DNA of 64,000 bases, taken from positions 186,001-250,000 of the forward strand of contig NZ_SNUT01000003.1 in assembly GCF_012027615.1 (NCBI RefSeq), given 5' to 3'. The position numbers and the translations under genes were made by a program. Positions 6,834 to 48,933 of the stretch are shown in pieces. The stretch's first letter is position 1. Every line of letters starts with the position of its first letter. The DNA comes from Thermococcus sp. 21S7. Its GTDB lineage: Archaea > Methanobacteriota_B > Thermococci > Thermococcales > Thermococcaceae. The notes under the pieces are model-generated. The model was not told the DNA's origin and made no database searches. It was given only the letters and a program-made list of their open reading frames with translations.

Positions 6834-8252
6834 TCAGGCCCCCCTCCTGAGGTATTCAGCGTACTTAACAAGGCCCGCCAGGGCGCGGACACCCCTTTCG
6901 GGGGTCGGGTAAACGGGAACTCCCCTGTCCTCAAGGATTCTGGCGTAGTGGTCGGTCTTCTTACCGCCCATTGCAACGGCAACGATTGGCTTGTTGCTCT
7001 TCTTCTGGTACTCCGCGAGGATGTCGATTATCTTCTCCTCTTCGAGGAGCGGGACCTGGAAGAGGACTATGACGAGGATAGCGTCAACGTTGGGGTCGTT
7101 CACGAAGCCCTCGATGGCTATCCTATAGCGCTCGGCGTCGGTGTCGCCAACGACGTCGGTCGGGTTTCCTGCCACCGCGTGCGGCGGGAAGTTCTCCTTC
7201 AGGTACTTGAGGGTCTCCTCGCTCAGGTCTGCCATCTTGAGGCCGAACTTGGCGACGGCATCGCTGGCCATAACGCCCGCTCCACCGCCGTCGGTGATTA
7301 TCCCTATCCTGTCACCCTTCGGGAGCTTGTCCTTGAGCCGGGCAAAGGCCTTTGCCAGGTCAAACATGTGCTCAAAGTCCTCGGCGCGGATAACCCCTGT
7401 CTGCTTGAAGACGGCATCGTAAATCGTGTCGGCACCTGCGAGCGAGCCGGTGTGGGAAGAGGCGGCCTTGGCACCGTACTCGCTCCTCCCGCTCTTGAGG
7501 GCTATGACCGGCTTGACTTTCGTAATGCGCTTGGCGGCCTCTATGAACTTCCTGCCGTCCTTGACGCCCTCGATGTAGAAGGTGACCACGTTGATTTCGT
7601 CATCGTGGATGAAGTAGTCCATAAGGTCTGCATCATCAACGTCGAGCTTGTTGCCGTAGCTGACCATCTTCCCGATTCCTATGCCTGCTCCAGCGGCCCA
7701 GTCGAGCATAGCTGCCGCGAAAGCTCCGCTCTGGCTGACGAAGGCTATCGGCCCGCTCTTCGGCCTGTCCATCTTGCTCTCCGGCAGGAAGACGGTGTCA
7801 ACGCCGGTGTCCGGGACGTAGACGCCGACGCAGTTCGGGCCGATGACCCTTATTCCGTTCTCCCTGGCTATCTCAAGGATCTCGCGCTCCAGCTTCTTTC
7901 CTTCCTCACCGAGCTCACCGAATCCGCCGGTGATGATGATGACGGACTTTATTCCCTTCTTGGCTATCTGCCTCATCGTATCGGGGACGAACGGGGCGGG
8001 AATCGATATGACCGCCAGGTCGGTGTCCTCCGGAAGCTCCTCGACGCTCTTGTAGACCTTGTAGCCCTCTATCTCATCGAGCTTGGGGTTCACGGGGTAT
8101 ATGTTGCCCTTGAAGACCCCGCGCTCCTTGTTCATCCTGAAGTTCTCAAAGATGACGTTTCCAACCTTACCCTTCTTGTTGGTTGCACCGATGATAGCGA
8201 CCGCCTTCGGGTCGAAGAAGGGCCTCATTTCCGTAACTATCTTTTCCACCAT
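6834..8252 (-). CDS. acdA: Acetyl/acyl-CoA synthetase (ADP-forming), alpha subunit
   Basis: 472 residues: an N-terminal CoA-binding Rossmann domain (FFDPKAVAIIGATNKKGKVG), a succinyl-CoA-ligase-like middle and a flavodoxin-like C-terminal part. The phosphorylated catalytic histidine lies in SSHTGSLAGAD and a glycine-rich GDGGGAGV-type loop follows (TDGGGAGVMASDA). The ATG at 8252 is chosen because GGTGGAGGG lies 6 nt upstream; an open frame runs further upstream but overlaps the promoter. Alpha and beta being adjacent implies stoichiometric production of the alpha2beta2 enzyme. Confidence 0.92.
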   Translation of the reverse strand: MVEKIVTEMRPFFDPKAVAIIGATNKKGKVGNVIFENFRMNKERGVFKGNIYPVNPKLDEIEGYKVYKSVEELPEDTDLAVISIPAPFVPDTMRQIAKKGIKSVIIITGGFGELGEEGKKLEREILEIARENGIRVIGPNCVGVYVPDTGVDTVFLPESKMDRPKSGPIAFVSQSGAFAAAMLDWAAGAGIGIGKMVSYGNKLDVDDADLMDYFIHDDEINVVTFYIEGVKDGRKFIEAAKRITKVKPVIALKSGRSEYGAKAASSHTGSLAGADTIYDAVFKQTGVIRAEDFEHMFDLAKAFARLKDKLPKGDRIGIITDGGGAGVMASDAVAKFGLKMADLSEETLKYLKENFPPHAVAGNPTDVVGDTDAERYRIAIEGFVNDPNVDAILVIVLFQVPLLEEEKIIDILAEYQKKSNKPIVAVAMGGKKTDHYARILEDRGVPVYPTPERGVRALAGLVKYAEYLRRGA

Positions 8253-42178: not shown

Positions 42179-42216
42179 GTGCTTTTCGTACTCCTCAATG
42201 TGGTGCCCTCAAACTC

Positions 42217-42222
42217 TTTTTT
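42217..42222 (+). terminator. Oligo-T terminator candidate after the ppcA operon
   Basis: Six T residues 38 nt after the stop at 42178, at the edge where base composition shifts toward the AT-rich restriction island. The rest of 42179-42417 holds no convincing gene. Confidence 0.35.
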
Positions 42223-42417
42223 AGGATCCTCACCGAGGAGGAAGAGCAGTTCACCCGAGTTGATCTCCTTAGCCTCGATTTTCACAGGACACCCCACTAT
42301 GGCCTTCATCCACTTTGCTCCACTTTATTTCGGGGTGCTTTTTCATCCTCCAGTAGAGTCAGGTGGGACAGAGAGGATTATGTTCGGCATGCCAGTACTG
42401 CACGGAATTATGTGAGT

Positions 42418-43908
42418 TCACGTATTTAATGGTGGCAGGAGCTGGGAGAAGAAAAGAGAATACTTTAAATACTCAAGAGCAACTTTTTCATTATATTCAA
42501 TATAAAGTTCCACTGTTCGTTTGGCTATTTCCAAACGTTTTTTGCTATTTTCCCATGCTTTAAATGATTGCTGAATCAATTGAGAAATTTTTTGTTGAAC
42601 TTGTGGGCATACTTTTGGAATGACAATCCTATTAAGCGAATCATAAGGAATCGCTGTTAATATTGTCCCTTGAGCTTCTCTTACTAAGTATATTTTTGAT
42701 AATACCTTTAGCAAGACCAATAATGTTTCTTTGTTTATTTCCTTTTCCTTGAAAACAAAAAATCCGGTAGATGCAACTAAATTGTTCTTATCAAAGTGTA
42801 TCAATGCAATTTTATCTATGGAGCCCTCCACAGAAGACATAATTACATATCCTTTTTTTACTTCCATTCTCGCTCTACTGGGCAAGTCTTCGCCTGAGAT
42901 TTGCTTTGTTTGTTTTACTACACCCAAATTGGGATTAATATCAGCAAGTTCAATGTAGTCGTAGGTTCCCCCTTTATTCACTTTTATTTTTTTCTTTGAA
43001 ATTTCAACTAAATGTGGTAGATATCCCCAACCGTTTTTGTAATTCTTTATCACATCTTCAATCTCATCATATTTTGGATCCCAGTACTCTGCATCCATTC
43101 TGTCTTTTTTTGTAACATCTGAAAGCATCCTTATTGAAATGTTTTCTTCTTCCTCAAAGTCTTTTCCATCAATCTTTATCTTCTTTGTCTTTGGCTTCCA
43201 ATTTTTAAGGCTTAATTCGTTTAATAAAATATGTTCAGCCTGTCTATAAAGTTGCTCTGCCCTTTTTCTCTCTTCATAAGCTGTTATAACAAGTTTCTCT
43301 ATGAACTTTTGGAAAGTATTAGAGGGAACAGGAATTTTTAAAGATTTAAGCTCTTCCGCATTTATGTTAGCTTGATTAACAGCTCTTCTCATAACCCTTC
43401 TCAATGATATCCTTCCATATTTTGTGTTAAGATATACAGTTATATAAAAGTTTGTAAAGTAATTCTTTGCTCTAACTATTATTAGATACGATGCAAAAGT
43501 GTGATCTCCATCCAGTAAGTAAATTCCCGTCCTACCCACGAATTCCTCTGAGTTTACTCGATTAAATAAGATATCGCCTTTTTCTAATTTAAACTTTTGG
43601 AATGTCTTTGAATCTATTTCCACATATTTACAATTTGAGTCATCTGCCAAGATGCCTATTATATCGTCCATTTTAAGGATTTTATAACCTACTTTCTCTT
43701 CGTTCATGGCTAATGAAAGTCCATATTGAACTTTAGAAACTAAATCACCAATACGACACCACTTTTTCTTTGTAATTATCTTCTCATTTTTCAAATAAAA
43801 TGGATCGTAATATTCAGCATCAATTCTCAATTCTCCTTCCAATTCCGAGATATTAACTATTGAGTATTCTATATTATAGTATCTTCCCTGATGTTTTGCT
43901 GTTTTCAT
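42418..43908 (-). CDS. hsdS: Restriction-modification specificity subunit (HsdS-like, two TRDs)
   Basis: 496 residues with two target-recognition half-domains. Each is introduced by the same motif, RIDAEYYDPFY at 28-38 and RMDAEYWDPKY at 270-280, and each is followed by a TRD and a long conserved helix (EERKRAEQLYRQAEHILLN in the first repeat). The twofold design reads a bipartite DNA target for the methylase-nuclease encoded upstream. The start overlaps the HEPN-type gene by 4 nt (ATGA). Codon use is strongly AT-biased compared with genes outside 42.4-46.9 kb, indicating horizontal transfer. Confidence 0.88.
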   Translation of the reverse strand: MKTAKHQGRYYNIEYSIVNISELEGELRIDAEYYDPFYLKNEKIITKKKWCRIGDLVSKVQYGLSLAMNEEKVGYKILKMDDIIGILADDSNCKYVEIDSKTFQKFKLEKGDILFNRVNSEEFVGRTGIYLLDGDHTFASYLIIVRAKNYFTNFYITVYLNTKYGRISLRRVMRRAVNQANINAEELKSLKIPVPSNTFQKFIEKLVITAYEERKRAEQLYRQAEHILLNELSLKNWKPKTKKIKIDGKDFEEEENISIRMLSDVTKKDRMDAEYWDPKYDEIEDVIKNYKNGWGYLPHLVEISKKKIKVNKGGTYDYIELADINPNLGVVKQTKQISGEDLPSRARMEVKKGYVIMSSVEGSIDKIALIHFDKNNLVASTGFFVFKEKEINKETLLVLLKVLSKIYLVREAQGTILTAIPYDSLNRIVIPKVCPQVQQKISQLIQQSFKAWENSKKRLEIAKRTVELYIEYNEKVALEYLKYSLFFSQLLPPLNT

Positions 43909-44876
43909 TTTCTCACACCTCTTTCTTGTAAAATTCTAATGTTTTCTTCGGTCAAATGTTTGAGAGCTAGGTATGAGTATTCAAATAGTGATTGCCAGTC
44001 TTCATCCATAGGATCAATAATAAAATGAAAAAGTATATTTCTCAATTTATATGCAAAGTCTAGAAACCATTTTGTCAGTTCCTCATCGAAGTATTGGGGT
44101 TTATTAGGTATTTCGAGGGTACTTTGGTTTATATCGTCTATTGCATTATGGGGTCTACGTGGGAAAATATTTTTGATGTCTAATTCTTCATAGAGCTTTC
44201 TCTCGATATCTCTTAAACATTCATCATTGAGAAAATTAATTCTTCTTTGTTTCCCTCTTTCACTGAGACGTTTGTTGCTGTTGATTATATGTTCTATTTT
44301 TTTTCTTACAGTTGACAAAACTTCCTCTATAAATTTTCCCTTTTCTTCAAAAATTCTGCTATTTTTAACTTTTTCTGAAAGAGAAAATCCAGTCTCTATA
44401 CTATCAGCTCCGAAATAATCCCTAAACTTTCGACGGTCATCCGTTAGTATGATTTTAAGATGTCTCTCTCGACTATTCAGATGAGCCTTCAATGAAAGTT
44501 TCGTTGTTTTACCTCTGTAAACATATAGAAATTCCTGATAATAATTATCATTGTAGGTGTAAAAAATTTCAAAATAATCCCTCAAAAAAGGACTTGAATT
44601 TAATGTCTCATTCTTTGCTTTTAAGTATGCATTTAATACATTCCTAACAAAATCTTCATCTATTTTTACAAGAATCTCGTTAAAAAGTTGTTCTTTGTAT
44701 TTCTCTAGGATATCACGATCTCCTCTACGTTCCCGTGTATCATTAGAATCCAGAACAAGCTCTTGAAGAGATGCAAGAAAAGTAAACCACGTCTTAATAA
44801 ACATAGTAATATAATCTGTTTCTATTAGTGATAACCAACTTATGTATTTTTTTCTTGTTGTATCTTGTGAAGGCAT
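43905..44876 (-). CDS. Hypothetical protein with HEPN-type motif inside a restriction-modification operon
   Basis: 323 residues, mostly helical, highly charged, no signal or membrane segment. Near the C-terminus (R279-H284) it has RNILFH, which fits the RNxxxH (Rx4-6H) active-site motif of HEPN ribonucleases. The surrounding helices are FLDFAYKL before and WQSLFEYSYLALKHLTEENIRIL after, as in HEPN folds. The N-terminal 250 residues match nothing I recognise. It starts at ATG 44876, directly after the methylase stop, and overlaps hsdS by 4 nt, so it is made together with them. By analogy with PrrC/RloC-type nucleases carried in type I loci it could be an RNA-cleaving back-up defence, but that is inference. 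Confidence 0.7.
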   Translation of the reverse strand: MPSQDTTRKKYISWLSLIETDYITMFIKTWFTFLASLQELVLDSNDTRERRGDRDILEKYKEQLFNEILVKIDEDFVRNVLNAYLKAKNETLNSSPFLRDYFEIFYTYNDNYYQEFLYVYRGKTTKLSLKAHLNSRERHLKIILTDDRRKFRDYFGADSIETGFSLSEKVKNSRIFEEKGKFIEEVLSTVRKKIEHIINSNKRLSERGKQRRINFLNDECLRDIERKLYEELDIKNIFPRRPHNAIDDINQSTLEIPNKPQYFDEELTKWFLDFAYKLRNILFHFIIDPMDEDWQSLFEYSYLALKHLTEENIRILQERGVRK

Positions 44877-46661
44877 TTATTCCACCTCCACATCATCTAA
44901 GAAATCAAATGCTTCATCCCCCTCATCTTCTAATCTCTTTTTTCCCCACTTAATGAAAGCATCTGCTATGTCAAACAAATCAGTTTGGTAGACAGGATTT
45001 CCTTTTTCATCGAACACTGGATCACCATTTTCATCTGTTACAAATATGTAATTGCCAGAGTTGTCCTTGAACGGTATCTTTGAAACCGCAAAGAATATGG
45101 GATAATCCTTGATCTTTGGATTCCCACCTTCGTCAAGTTCTTCTTCTTTCCATTTCCTCAAGAGTAGAAGTGATGTTTTTGTTCCTGTGTGTGGCTTAAA
45201 CGAATTCCCATGAAGCCCAATGACTGCTAGTATCCTTGCCTTTTTCATGATGAATTCCCGAATGTACCTATCTTTTGCGTTATTGAGCACCCCCTGCGGC
45301 AACACAATTGCTAACCTACCACCAGGTTTTACCATGTCTAAAGCCCGTTCAATAAACAGGACATGCCTGTCTATCTTAGAACCGGGTTTCCTTTTGCTTT
45401 CTGGGACGATATCATAAAGAGCCTTTAACCATTCTTCTTTTATATCTCCTGCAAAGGGTGGGTTAGTCATCAGAATATCAAAGTTAAGTTCCTTAAAGCG
45501 TTCATCTCTGACAAGGTCTTCTTCCCTTAAATCAGCTTTTAACTTTTCGCTCCACCGTATAAATTCCAAGGAGTTTTCTTTGTATATATGTGATCTACCA
45601 TCCCCTGCAATTAGCATAATGGCCCTTGAAATCTTAGTGGCTTTCTCTTCAAAATCTATCCCCCACAGGTACGTCCTGGCATATTCTTCTCTCGCCTTTT
45701 TGTTCGCAATGTTATATTTGTCCCACACATACTGCATGGAATGGACGAGAAAACCTGCACTACCACAGGCAGGATCAATTATGTACTCCTGTCTGTGTGG
45801 GTTTAACATCCTAACTGTTGCATCTATTATTACTCTTGGTGTAAAATACTGCCCTTTTTTTGATTTTGAAACTTCTGGTACGAGATATTCAAAAGCCTCA
45901 TCTATTACTCTTAAATCCGCCCCAAAAAGTTTCACTTCCTGCATTTCTGCAACACATACGCTTAAATGCTCTGGTGTTAACTTTATTTTCTCGGTTTTTT
46001 CGAATATTCCTTTCCATTTCTGCTTTGCTCCTTCAAAAAGTTCAGAGATCACTTTGTACGTTGTTTTTGGATCCTTATATTTTCTAAATTTCAGCTCTCT
46101 GTTTTTTCTGTAATACTCCGCCTCTATCTCATCAAATAGCTTTGCGTAGATTAGTTTGAAGATTTCATTGAAACTGTCAACACCAGAGTTTGCCAAAACT
46201 AGCTCTTCAAGAAGCTCAATAATTTCTCTTAGAGACTTTTTCTTTTTTCGGGCTTTTTTTTCCAACTCGTCAAGAGTCCATTTTCTGTTTAGTACAATAT
46301 CAGCCACTTCAATTGCAGGATTGCTAGTATCTTTGACTTCCAAATACTCTTCATAAGTGGGTATATCTGGCAAGTTATCATCGAATTCTTTCGGATAGGG
46401 GCGATAAAGAATCGTCATTTCTTTCCCGTTGATTGCAACTCCCAGTGGGGAACCTTCTGCATTTAAATAGCTTTTCAACTGTGATATATTCAACCTTTCG
46501 TGAGGGGCCTTTACTTCGATTATAATCCAAGGCGTTATATTATCTTGCTGATATACCACAATATCCGCCCTTTTCTTTTCTCTGCCAAAGCTCACTTTTT
46601 CTTCGATTTTTATCAGATTCAGAGGATAATTATAGTTATCAGTTAATTCAAACAAAAACAA
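44877..46661 (-). CDS. Fused PD-(D/E)XK nuclease / N6-adenine DNA methyltransferase (type IIB/IIG-like RM subunit)
   Basis: At least 594 residues. Residues 1-75 match the N-terminal nuclease domain of type I R subunits with D33 (RADIVVY) and E49-V-K51 (IIEVKAP). A helical spacer follows, then a gamma-class adenine methylase: motif I DPACGSAGF at 296-304, motif IV NPPF at 400-403, preceded by GQYFTPR. No helicase domain is present, so this resembles BcgI-type A subunits that cut and methylate with a separate S subunit. The only start, TTG 46661, cuts into a conserved helix: upstream in the same frame reads KKAEEIVRQ before a stop. The N-terminus may be lost by frameshift relative to the 65-residue ORF just upstream. 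Confidence 0.82.
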   Translation of the reverse strand: MFLFELTDNYNYPLNLIKIEEKVSFGREKKRADIVVYQQDNITPWIIIEVKAPHERLNISQLKSYLNAEGSPLGVAINGKEMTILYRPYPKEFDDNLPDIPTYEEYLEVKDTSNPAIEVADIVLNRKWTLDELEKKARKKKKSLREIIELLEELVLANSGVDSFNEIFKLIYAKLFDEIEAEYYRKNRELKFRKYKDPKTTYKVISELFEGAKQKWKGIFEKTEKIKLTPEHLSVCVAEMQEVKLFGADLRVIDEAFEYLVPEVSKSKKGQYFTPRVIIDATVRMLNPHRQEYIIDPACGSAGFLVHSMQYVWDKYNIANKKAREEYARTYLWGIDFEEKATKISRAIMLIAGDGRSHIYKENSLEFIRWSEKLKADLREEDLVRDERFKELNFDILMTNPPFAGDIKEEWLKALYDIVPESKRKPGSKIDRHVLFIERALDMVKPGGRLAIVLPQGVLNNAKDRYIREFIMKKARILAVIGLHGNSFKPHTGTKTSLLLLRKWKEEELDEGGNPKIKDYPIFFAVSKIPFKDNSGNYIFVTDENGDPVFDEKGNPVYQTDLFDIADAFIKWGKKRLEDEGDEAFDFLDDVEVE

Positions 46662-46669
46662 TTGCCGTA

Positions 46670-46867
46670 CTATCTCCTCGGCCTTTTTTGATTCTTCTTT
46701 TCATCTAGGATCAGTCTCTCTTTTCCACTGGCATCGTGACTTTTTATATACCATTTACCCTCTCCTTTTTCATAAATCTTAAGTTTTTCCAGATGAGTTA
46801 TTAGCAGAGGTAGCTCTGCTTTTGCATTTGGGATAATCCGGTTTATAATATCCATCCTCCCGCTCAT
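46670..46867 (-). CDS. Small ORF leading the RM operon, possibly the displaced N-terminus of the methylase gene
   Basis: 65 residues (MSGRMDIINRIIPNAKAEL... ending EKKNQKRPRR), lysine-rich and soluble. ATG 46867 has GGGAGATGGGAGC upstream. Its last codons overlap the run of A and G where the nuclease-methylase frame opens, and a single-nucleotide shift there would join the two into one protein. As it stands it would be a separate small protein of unknown role. I cannot choose between these readings. Confidence 0.5.
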   Translation of the reverse strand: MSGRMDIINRIIPNAKAELPLLITHLEKLKIYEKGEGKWYIKSHDASGKERLILDEKKNQKRPRR

Positions 46868-46947
46868 GCTCCCATCTCCCCGAATAGCCTGTTGTCTATG
46901 TTTCTTAAATGTTTCTGCTTTGGAGAGTAATGCATTATCGTTCTCAT
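46864..46947 (-). CDS. 27-residue ORF at the head of the RM operon
   Basis: A short frame (MRTIMHYSPKQKHLRNIDNR...) with a very strong ribosome binding site (GGGGGG, about 4 nt before ATG 46947). Its stop overlaps the next ATG as ATGA. It is basic and could be a leader peptide, a small regulator or a remnant. AT-rich sequence about 55 nt upstream (47001-47019) could hold the operon promoter. Coding status is uncertain. Confidence 0.4.
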   Translation of the reverse strand: MRTIMHYSPKQKHLRNIDNRLFGEMGA

Positions 46948-47034
46948 CGTTCCCCCCTAGGTTTTATTTTTGTGTCGTGAGTTGATGTAGTAAAGATGAG
47001 ATTAAAATTAAATTTAAGAAAAATTTTTTAAGAA

Positions 47035-48933
47035 TCAGCTCTTCAGCCACCTCTCCATCCACTCAGCAATCAGCTCAAGCCTCTTAACCCTGTGCTTCGG
47101 CTTTCCGCCTCTGCTGAGGTCGTGGTTCTCGCCCGGGAAGAGCGCCAGCTCAACGGTCTTGCCGAGGTATTTGAGCGCCGTGTAGAACTGAAGGGCCTCG
47201 GGCAACCAGCAGCGGTAGTCCTCCATCGAGTGGATTATGAGGAGTGGAGTTTCCACGTTCGGCGCGTACTTCAGCGGGCTCTTCTCCCAGTAGCCGTCGG
47301 TGTTGCTCCACGGGTCGCCGCCTATCTGGTCGGGCGCGAAGAAGTAGCCTATATCTGTGGTTCCGAAGAAGCTCACCCAGTTGGAGATTGAGCGCTGGGT
47401 TACCGCCGCTTTAAAGCGCTTCGTGTGGCCGACTATCCAGTTGGTCATGAAGCCACCGTAGGAGCCGCCGGTGACGCCGAGCCTCTCCCCATCGATGAAG
47501 TCGAAGCGCTTCAGTGCTTCATCAACGACCTCCATGAGGTCCTGATAATCCCTCTTCCCGTAGTGCTCCCTTATATCGGCGAACTCCTCACCGTAGCCGT
47601 CGCTGCCGCGTGGGTTGGAGAATATCACGACGAAGCCCTTAGCCGTCAAAACGTGGAACTCGTGCATGAATGAGTAGCCGTAGGCCGTCTTAGGCCCGCC
47701 GTGAATCTCAAGAACCGCGGGATACTTTTTCCCAGGCTCGAAGTTCAGGGGCTTCATAATCCAGGCGTCAATTTCTACTCCATCGCTGGCCTTGACCTTG
47801 AAGTGCTCCGGTTTGGAGAGGGTGTACTCCTTTATCCAGCCGTTGAAGTCCGTGAGCTTTTTCTCCTTGCCATCGCGGAGGACGTAGAGCTCCGTCGGAG
47901 TGACCGCGTCCTGGGCGGTGAAGGCTATGTAGTCGCCGATTGCGAAGCTCTCAACGCTTCTATCTCCTCCGATGACGCGTTCTATCTTCCCCTCAAGATT
48001 CACCCTGAAGAGGTTGGCCCTCGGGCCGTCGGTTGCGACATAGTAAACCCAGCCATCCTTGAAAACCAGTTCTGCCCTCTGACTTCCCCTGACGTCACAG
48101 TTCAGGGAGTTGTATGCAGCCCTGTCGAGTTCCGTGGTGAGCTTCCTCATCTCGCCCGTCTCGGGGTTGTAGTGGTAGATGTGAGTATTCGTCGGAATCC
48201 CGCGCTCGCGGGTGTTGGCCTTGAGGATGAACGTGCCGTCGTCGAGGGGTATGAAGTCCTGAACGCTCCACTCCCCCGGAGTTAGGCGCTTTGCCTTCCT
48301 TCCCTCAAGGACGTAGAGGTCGCTCACCATCGGCTTTCTCTCGCGGTCCTCCTGGGCGATGAAGTAGAGCTTTCCTTCATGGAACCTGATCTGCGAGACG
48401 TCGAGGTTCTTCGGCGTTACGCGCCTCTTCCTGCCCGTCTCAAGATCAACGAGATAAACCACGCTCCTCTTTCCATAGACCCAGCCGACGCCGTTGAACC
48501 AGAAAGGAATCTCCCTGATTACGTGGACGTCGTCCTTCGGCTTCTTCTCAACGTCTATCGGCGTGACGACCGCTATGCTCTTCCCGTCCTCGGTGAAGCG
48601 GATGTTCTTGATTCCGTACTTGAACTTCGCTAAAAGCCTCGCCTCGCCGCCGTCGGTCGGAATAACGTACAGCTCGGCTTCCTTGCTCTCCTTGTCTCGC
48701 TTTGATGTGAAGGCTATCAGCTTCCCGTCCGGGGAGAAGCGCGGGTTGGAGTCCTTCTTTCCGGAGGTGAATGGTCTGACCTTTCTGCCGTCGTAGAGGT
48801 AGAGCCTTGAGAAGTAGTCGTCCTTCTCAACGCTTATCTCCGTTACCTGGAAAACGAGCCTTCTCCCGAAGGCGTCGATGTTACCAACGAGCTTGAACTT
48901 TCCGAGGTCTTTCTCGCTCAGGCCTTTCGCCAT
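47035..48933 (-). CDS. S9 family serine peptidase (acylaminoacyl-peptidase/prolyl oligopeptidase type)
   Basis: About 632 residues: an N-terminal beta-propeller with repeated blade motifs (NPRFSPDGKLIAFTSKRD, IRFTEDGKSIAVV) and a C-terminal alpha/beta hydrolase. The catalytic serine is in GGSYGGFM, the aspartate in HSMEDYRCW, and the histidine in FPGENHDLSRGGKPKHR. HGGPKTAYGYSF forms the oxyanion side. It degrades short peptides in the cytosol (no signal peptide), feeding amino-acid fermentation. ATG 48933 follows GGTGGTTTCT; the open frame upstream lies within the promoter region. Confidence 0.92.
   Translation of the reverse strand: MAKGLSEKDLGKFKLVGNIDAFGRRLVFQVTEISVEKDDYFSRLYLYDGRKVRPFTSGKKDSNPRFSPDGKLIAFTSKRDKESKEAELYVIPTDGGEARLLAKFKYGIKNIRFTEDGKSIAVVTPIDVEKKPKDDVHVIREIPFWFNGVGWVYGKRSVVYLVDLETGRKRRVTPKNLDVSQIRFHEGKLYFIAQEDRERKPMVSDLYVLEGRKAKRLTPGEWSVQDFIPLDDGTFILKANTRERGIPTNTHIYHYNPETGEMRKLTTELDRAAYNSLNCDVRGSQRAELVFKDGWVYYVATDGPRANLFRVNLEGKIERVIGGDRSVESFAIGDYIAFTAQDAVTPTELYVLRDGKEKKLTDFNGWIKEYTLSKPEHFKVKASDGVEIDAWIMKPLNFEPGKKYPAVLEIHGGPKTAYGYSFMHEFHVLTAKGFVVIFSNPRGSDGYGEEFADIREHYGKRDYQDLMEVVDEALKRFDFIDGERLGVTGGSYGGFMTNWIVGHTKRFKAAVTQRSISNWVSFFGTTDIGYFFAPDQIGGDPWSNTDGYWEKSPLKYAPNVETPLLIIHSMEDYRCWLPEALQFYTALKYLGKTVELALFPGENHDLSRGGKPKHRVKRLELIAEWMERWLKS

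Follow-up and report, generated by a model that had tools for sequence, protein, structure and literature searches.

The 64,000-nucleotide stretch of Thermococcus sp. 21S7 DNA that we analysed (hereafter, the window) contains a minus-strand operon of three genes, which encode, in order, a fusion of a nuclease with an adenine methyltransferase, a HEPN-like protein that we term X, and the specificity (S) subunit of a restriction-modification (R-M) system. We hypothesize, with a probability of roughly 0.55, that these genes constitute a mobile defence cassette, in which a type IIB-like restriction enzyme would be backed up by a HEPN RNase that is released when the enzyme cuts or fails.

The three genes are closely coupled: the TAA stop codon of the fusion gene is followed directly, with zero spacing, by the ATG of X, and X and the S gene overlap in an ATGA junction (Table 1). 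The GC content of the operon is 0.32-0.40, versus approximately 0.55 in its flanks. When we aligned the window with the relatives G061 and G092 by BLASTN, the alignment of the flanks ended at window positions 42429-42433 and resumed at 47041; both relatives possess the flanking genes and lack the operon, and the insert of approximately 4.6 kb replaces approximately 28 bp of G061. Because the alignment bounds the insert in this way, the operon is essentially the entire insert, and it was acquired horizontally as one unit. Among 114 genomes of Thermococci, none besides Thermococcus sp. 21S7 contains X. The insertion site itself (window 42180-42430; L108 in G061) appears by eye to be a vapBC-type toxin-antitoxin-like locus, whole in the relatives and present only as a partial remnant in Thermococcus sp. 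21S7.

Table 1. Features of the operon and its insert, in window coordinates.
Feature	Coordinates	Strand	Basis
Insert with whole operon	42430..47040	none	Junctions +/- ~15 bp; BLASTN versus relatives G061 and G092; GC drop
S subunit, two target-recognition regions, 496 aa	42418..43908	-	Pfam Methylase_S in two stretches; PADLOC Specificity_I E 4.8e-46
Middle gene X, 323 aa, HEPN-like	43905..44876	-	ORF call and homologue alignment
RNILFH (Rx4H) motif of X, R279-H284	44025..44042	-	Invariant R and H; end of penultimate helix in models
RM fusion gene (nuclease and adenine methyltransferase)	44877..46867	-	663 aa if frame change is read through
N6_Mtase domain	45087..45905	-	Pfam PF02384 E 2.6e-35; NPPF motif, residues 400-403
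HSDR_N_2 PD-(D/E)XK nuclease domain	46359..46658	-	Pfam PF13588 E 3.3e-17; D33, E49-x-K51, Q61xxxY65 (46661-frame numbering)
First ~60 codons of RM gene, other frame	46670..46867	-	Own 65-aa ORF, ATG behind Shine-Dalgarno-like GGGAG
A6 tract in RM gene	46684..46689	-	-1 frame change there restores full reading frame

The initial annotation, made from the sequence alone, had described a PD-(D/E)XK nuclease and an adenine methylase in one chain, a separate S subunit with two target-recognition domains (TRDs), a 323-residue middle protein with an RNxxxH motif coupled on both sides, and no HsdR gene in the window. All of this was borne out by the domain matches, the junctions and the HsdR search given here, with the qualification that the N-terminal ~60 codons of the fusion are out of frame in the assembly. 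The same annotation had run the fusion gene up to 46947 in one frame, and here we differ: the gene is likely to start at the ATG at 46867, and its reading frame shifts by -1 at an A6 tract. The main open frame spans 46661..44877 and would begin with a TTG. This TTG is not the real start, because it is preceded by a conserved EEIVRQL block that belongs to the main frame and follows the frame change. The family profile scores 682 bits against the read-through product versus 664 bits against the main frame; the first ~50 residues alone give no significant profile score and are supported by the start signal and the length. The frame change may reflect an error of assembly, a mutation or recoding, and the fusion copy in this assembly may be broken or mis-sequenced; its nuclease active site lies downstream of the A6 tract.

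Type IIB systems of the BcgI kind consist of a fused nuclease-methylase and an S subunit, and it was to such a motor-less platform that the operon had been likened at the outset. The likeness held up in both domains of the fusion, whose family profile has RM.BsaXI as its best PDB match (E 3.7e-4 for the nuclease and 4.3e-39 for the methyltransferase). D33, E49, K51 and the QxxxY motif are invariant across 11 aligned fusions, as is E20. The BsaXI residues in register with D33, E49 and K51 are D90, E105 and K107, which are catalytic (PMC11997821); the alignment of E20 with the first catalytic Glu of BsaXI, E73, could be off by two residues. In a set of 31 fusions, the nuclease residue set is absent only from two kinase-linked, MADS-like ones (L030 and L066), one further row being gapped or incomplete. 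The best reading of the fusion is a putative motor-less, type IIB-like enzyme: as in BsaXI and BcgI, a nuclease is fused to an N6-adenine methyltransferase, the two-TRD S subunit is separate and there is no motor. In contrast to those enzymes, the operon has a third gene, which falls outside the type IIB definition, and the fusion conserves the QxxxY motif of HsdR. Cutting of both strands on both sides of the site is predicted for it. On the Picosynechococcus plasmid pAQ6 (L024 8001-11540), fusion and S are joined into a single protein of ~1,180 aa, and X is absent.

Two other assignments were considered and rejected. The best NCBIfam matches of the fusion (276.9 bits) and of S (80.6 bits) are to the MADS proteins MAD2/MAD5, but these scores are far under the curated equivalog cut-offs (720 and 400), the operon has no kinase, and the nuclease residues lost from the kinase-linked MADS relatives are intact in the Thermococcus sp. 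21S7 fusion. A type I system was dismissed since no separate HsdR translocase accompanies the operon: we found no HsdR in the operon or within the window, and the full-length HsdR genes of this genome, at C1 and C8, each sit near their own M gene. Partnership of one of these stray HsdRs with the fusion and S, which had been named beforehand as a finding that would count against the motor-less interpretation, is accordingly unlikely and was rejected; moreover, the fusion is the sole HSDR_N match in two of the three clostridial genomes that bear the cassette. On C1 (G000; L049 10242-16854) two full-length HsdRs (1,105 and 1,084 aa) lie in tandem behind one type I M/S pair.

X could be assigned to no family of Pfam, PADLOC, NCBIfam or PHROGs. 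An RNx3H motif by itself is weak evidence, and the motif is strengthened by the behaviour of its two catalytic candidates in divergent homologues: the Arg and the His of Rx4H are invariant among nine aligned X sequences, archaeal to bacterial, that are only 15-30% identical. The residue after the Arg is Asn in all of them except L055 and L088, where it is Cys. The nine sequences also share W, D, F, W and D near the N terminus and R, L, H, P and Y near the C terminus; the N-terminal W/D/F/W block is conserved as strongly as Rx4H, the upstream Asp is conserved, the insert is variable and the family ranges in size from 197 to 426 aa. Its two subfamilies detect each other reciprocally (best E 2e-7 and 4.5e-10 among 1,635 ORFs, with one weak false match). 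We rejected as compositional or chance, and without support in any homologue, a DUF445 match of X (20 bits versus a cut-off of 33.8) and a PDB match to the DNA polymerase II large subunit (E 0.004). A radical SAM-like ORF (L023, E 5e-4) was likewise discarded as a false X homologue.

Structure models were made from alignments of window and fetched-locus proteins only. The AlphaFold model of a compact X homologue, L089 (pLDDT 87, pTM 0.86), has a helical core and a small beta insert; Rx4H ends the penultimate helix and the last helix follows. The model of the window X itself is poor (pLDDT 55), and a fold search with it gave nothing informative. HEPN active sites place Rx4-6H at the end of helix 3, with helix 4 thereafter and a variable insert between helices 2 and 3 (PMC3710099), and the modelled L089 protein appears to agree with this placement of both motif and insert. 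Searches of Pfam, PDB sequences and Foldseek returned no significant fold or profile match of X to a known HEPN protein. The best PDB chains found by Foldseek for L089 X are those of AbiV, which is a HEPN RNase, at E 2.9 and a low TM of about 0.2. The HEPN superfamily is characterised by extreme sequence divergence, and a significant fold or profile match is no defining feature of it. Because no such match was found, we call X HEPN-like and do not file it as a member of the superfamily; the earlier suggestion of a HEPN-like protein nonetheless agrees with the motif and with its predicted position in the helices, and X is in our judgement probably of HEPN type.

Conservation of the middle gene with the R-M genes had been set beforehand as a test, and we observed that the linkage is kept across archaea and bacteria. 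Scanning 84,980 species, each represented by one genome, with patterns derived from X only, we obtained three relatives, all in clostridial MAGs (L008-L010), with X directly downstream of fusion and S. A search of 396 genomes with the X alignment added two more (L088 and L089), with X directly downstream of S, such that X adjoins fusion and S in 5/5 of the genome loci found by X-only searches. A search led by the fusion placed X beside fusion and S in L025, L036, L029, L055, L056 and L064; its sources include a Klebsiella plasmid (L025), a gut 'phage' scaffold and four distinct IMG/VR loci, in one of which (L058) the X copy is broken by a frame shift. The Klebsiella version of the cassette recurs with 99.9% identity in three of 5,426 E. 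coli genomes, and in E. coli EC2001 (L036) it lies on the chromosome, inside an integrative element adjoining guaA. The gene order is M-X-S in the archaeon versus M-S-X in the bacteria, adjacency being retained. About 1,300 genome searches and the plasmid collection yielded no intact X outside this context, and scanning viral contigs with X's own patterns gave none beyond the loci already found. Because the fusion is uncommon in its own right (2/391 genomes of the class at high stringency), the adjacency of X and fusion is not due to chance. From its occurrence in an archaeon, Clostridia, Klebsiella, E. coli and virus-classed contigs, the cassette appears to be a mobile unit, and the pairing looks deliberate. 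Separately, 465 plasmids, mostly from Klebsiella, retain only a 3' remnant of X, and the remnant is widespread on conjugative plasmids; on the one plasmid examined (L070) it is a 138-aa ORF located by IS1 and upstream of two DUF262 genes, without fusion or S.

Comparing the fusion tree with pairwise identities, we observed fusions that are 88% identical and carry X proteins only 24% identical, and others for which the values are 86% and 25%. The S subunits of close fusions diverge as much as X does, strong divergence of S being usual for TRDs. These comparisons indicate that X subfamilies replace one another in a slot that itself persists. The archaeal fusion groups in the tree with relatives that have no X, with moderate support and long branches. 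At L034 (11403-12338, on the same IMG/VR contig as L062) the third gene encodes AbiJ, an Abi_C/HEPN protein (PADLOC 270 bits), which shares the slot of X and has no detectable sequence relation to it. Two other occupants, both unclassified, are of HEPN nature by motif only, as judged by eye: a GNAT protein that has RERNTITH close to its N terminus (L032 11448-12677) and a protein with RDNRNHFFH (L044 8941-9696). Because many related pairs of fusion and S, such as those of L026, L027, L048 and L061, have no X, it is not needed for restriction, and X appears to be an optional, exchangeable accessory rather than a subunit that restriction requires. In the clostridial operon of L088, a Fic/DOC-like gene (6927-8093, by eye) follows X directly and recalls the three-level R-M/HEPN/DOC loci described in PMC3710099.

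The PrrC and RloC HEPN nucleases ride in type I loci as a second line of defence, and failure of the R-M system is known to release the PrrC RNase. X, a putative HEPN RNase, resembles PrrC with PrrI, and RloC, in that a HEPN RNase (PrrC) is tied to an R-M system; it differs in having no ABC-ATPase part and in a host system that has no HsdR. X was rejected as a PrrC or RloC protein because its 323 aa give no above-threshold ATPase match. Since X does not possess the regulatory ATPase of PrrC, any control of X would be left to the R-M enzyme. We propose that fusion and S would assemble into a type IIB-like (RM)2S enzyme, which would methylate adenines at a bipartite site in the host and cut unmodified DNA without a helicase motor. 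X would be a metal-independent RNase of HEPN type, restrained by, or through contact with, this enzyme. Cutting of incoming DNA, or inhibition or overwhelming of the enzyme, would free X, which would then cleave RNA (tRNA or mRNA) and arrest the infected cell. A HEPN second line that the R-M enzyme silences, and that is released upon failure, has been proposed for R-M-linked HEPN genes (PMC3710099). Against this back-up role stand the missing significant tie between X and known HEPN proteins, the many fusion and S pairs without X, and the frame shift in the present copy of the fusion.

A variant of this scheme, which we regard as possible if doubtful, would make the motor-less restriction enzyme a sensor whose recognition or cutting of unmodified DNA directly activates an exchangeable HEPN RNase, namely X, AbiJ and perhaps others. 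An unlikely alternative is that X cuts no RNA and, as a non-catalytic protein of HEPN fold or merely a helical one, assembles with the R-M enzyme or regulates it, for instance in anti-self control or TRD modulation. Such a subunit would fit the missing HEPN match, the wide range of X sizes and an N-terminal block as conserved as Rx4H, but it fits poorly with an Arg and a His that stay invariant while the remainder of the protein drifts, with the unrelated HEPN protein AbiJ in the same slot, and with pairs that do without X. It is less probable still that X and the R-M pair are the HEPN toxin and the antitoxin of an addiction module, whose main role would be to maintain a mobile element and which would protect from phages secondarily. 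The presence of the cassette on plasmids, in the integrative element beside guaA and in virus-classed contigs would suit such a module, as would the replacement (by eye) of a toxin-antitoxin-like locus in Thermococcus sp. 21S7; the plasmids that keep only a remnant of X, with neither fusion nor S in the one examined, indicate on the other hand that the trio can be lost, and addiction otherwise predicts the same anatomy as defence. That the slot is a mere landing place for unrelated genes, and X a passenger with no working link to the enzyme, is very improbable: the slot does hold different contents (AbiJ, the GNAT protein, a kinase or nothing), but intact X occurs nowhere else in the genomes and plasmids searched, the genes are coupled by overlap or by a few bases, and the cassette has moved between the domains of life in one piece.

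HEPN genes have been known from R-M operons since 2013, when at least 16 HEPN clades, AbiJ among them, were reported from R-M neighbourhoods and a dual defence against DNA and RNA was proposed (Anantharaman et al. 2013, PMC3710099). Like X, those proteins are small, carry Rx4-6H and are encoded within an R-M operon; X differs in having no Pfam HEPN match, in a comparison with part of those clades, and in its type IIB-like partner. The initial annotation had supposed that a composite DNA- and RNA-targeting system of this kind was not described as such. Broadly, this does not stand, since PMC3710099 proposes the same dual defence; what is left of the claim is the HEPN-like family and its type IIB-like host. 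In the open-licence literature we found no relevant paper on BcgI or BsaXI with HEPN, or on the accession numbers of X. Relative to the open-licence papers and libraries searched, the X family, its type IIB-like partner and a spread from archaea to bacteria with exchange in the slot appear to be new. None of the annotation and defence libraries that we tried recognises X. We stress that the cassette, near-identical in E. coli and Klebsiella, offers a compact, three-gene case for the 2013 idea that HEPN RNases serve R-M systems as a reserve.
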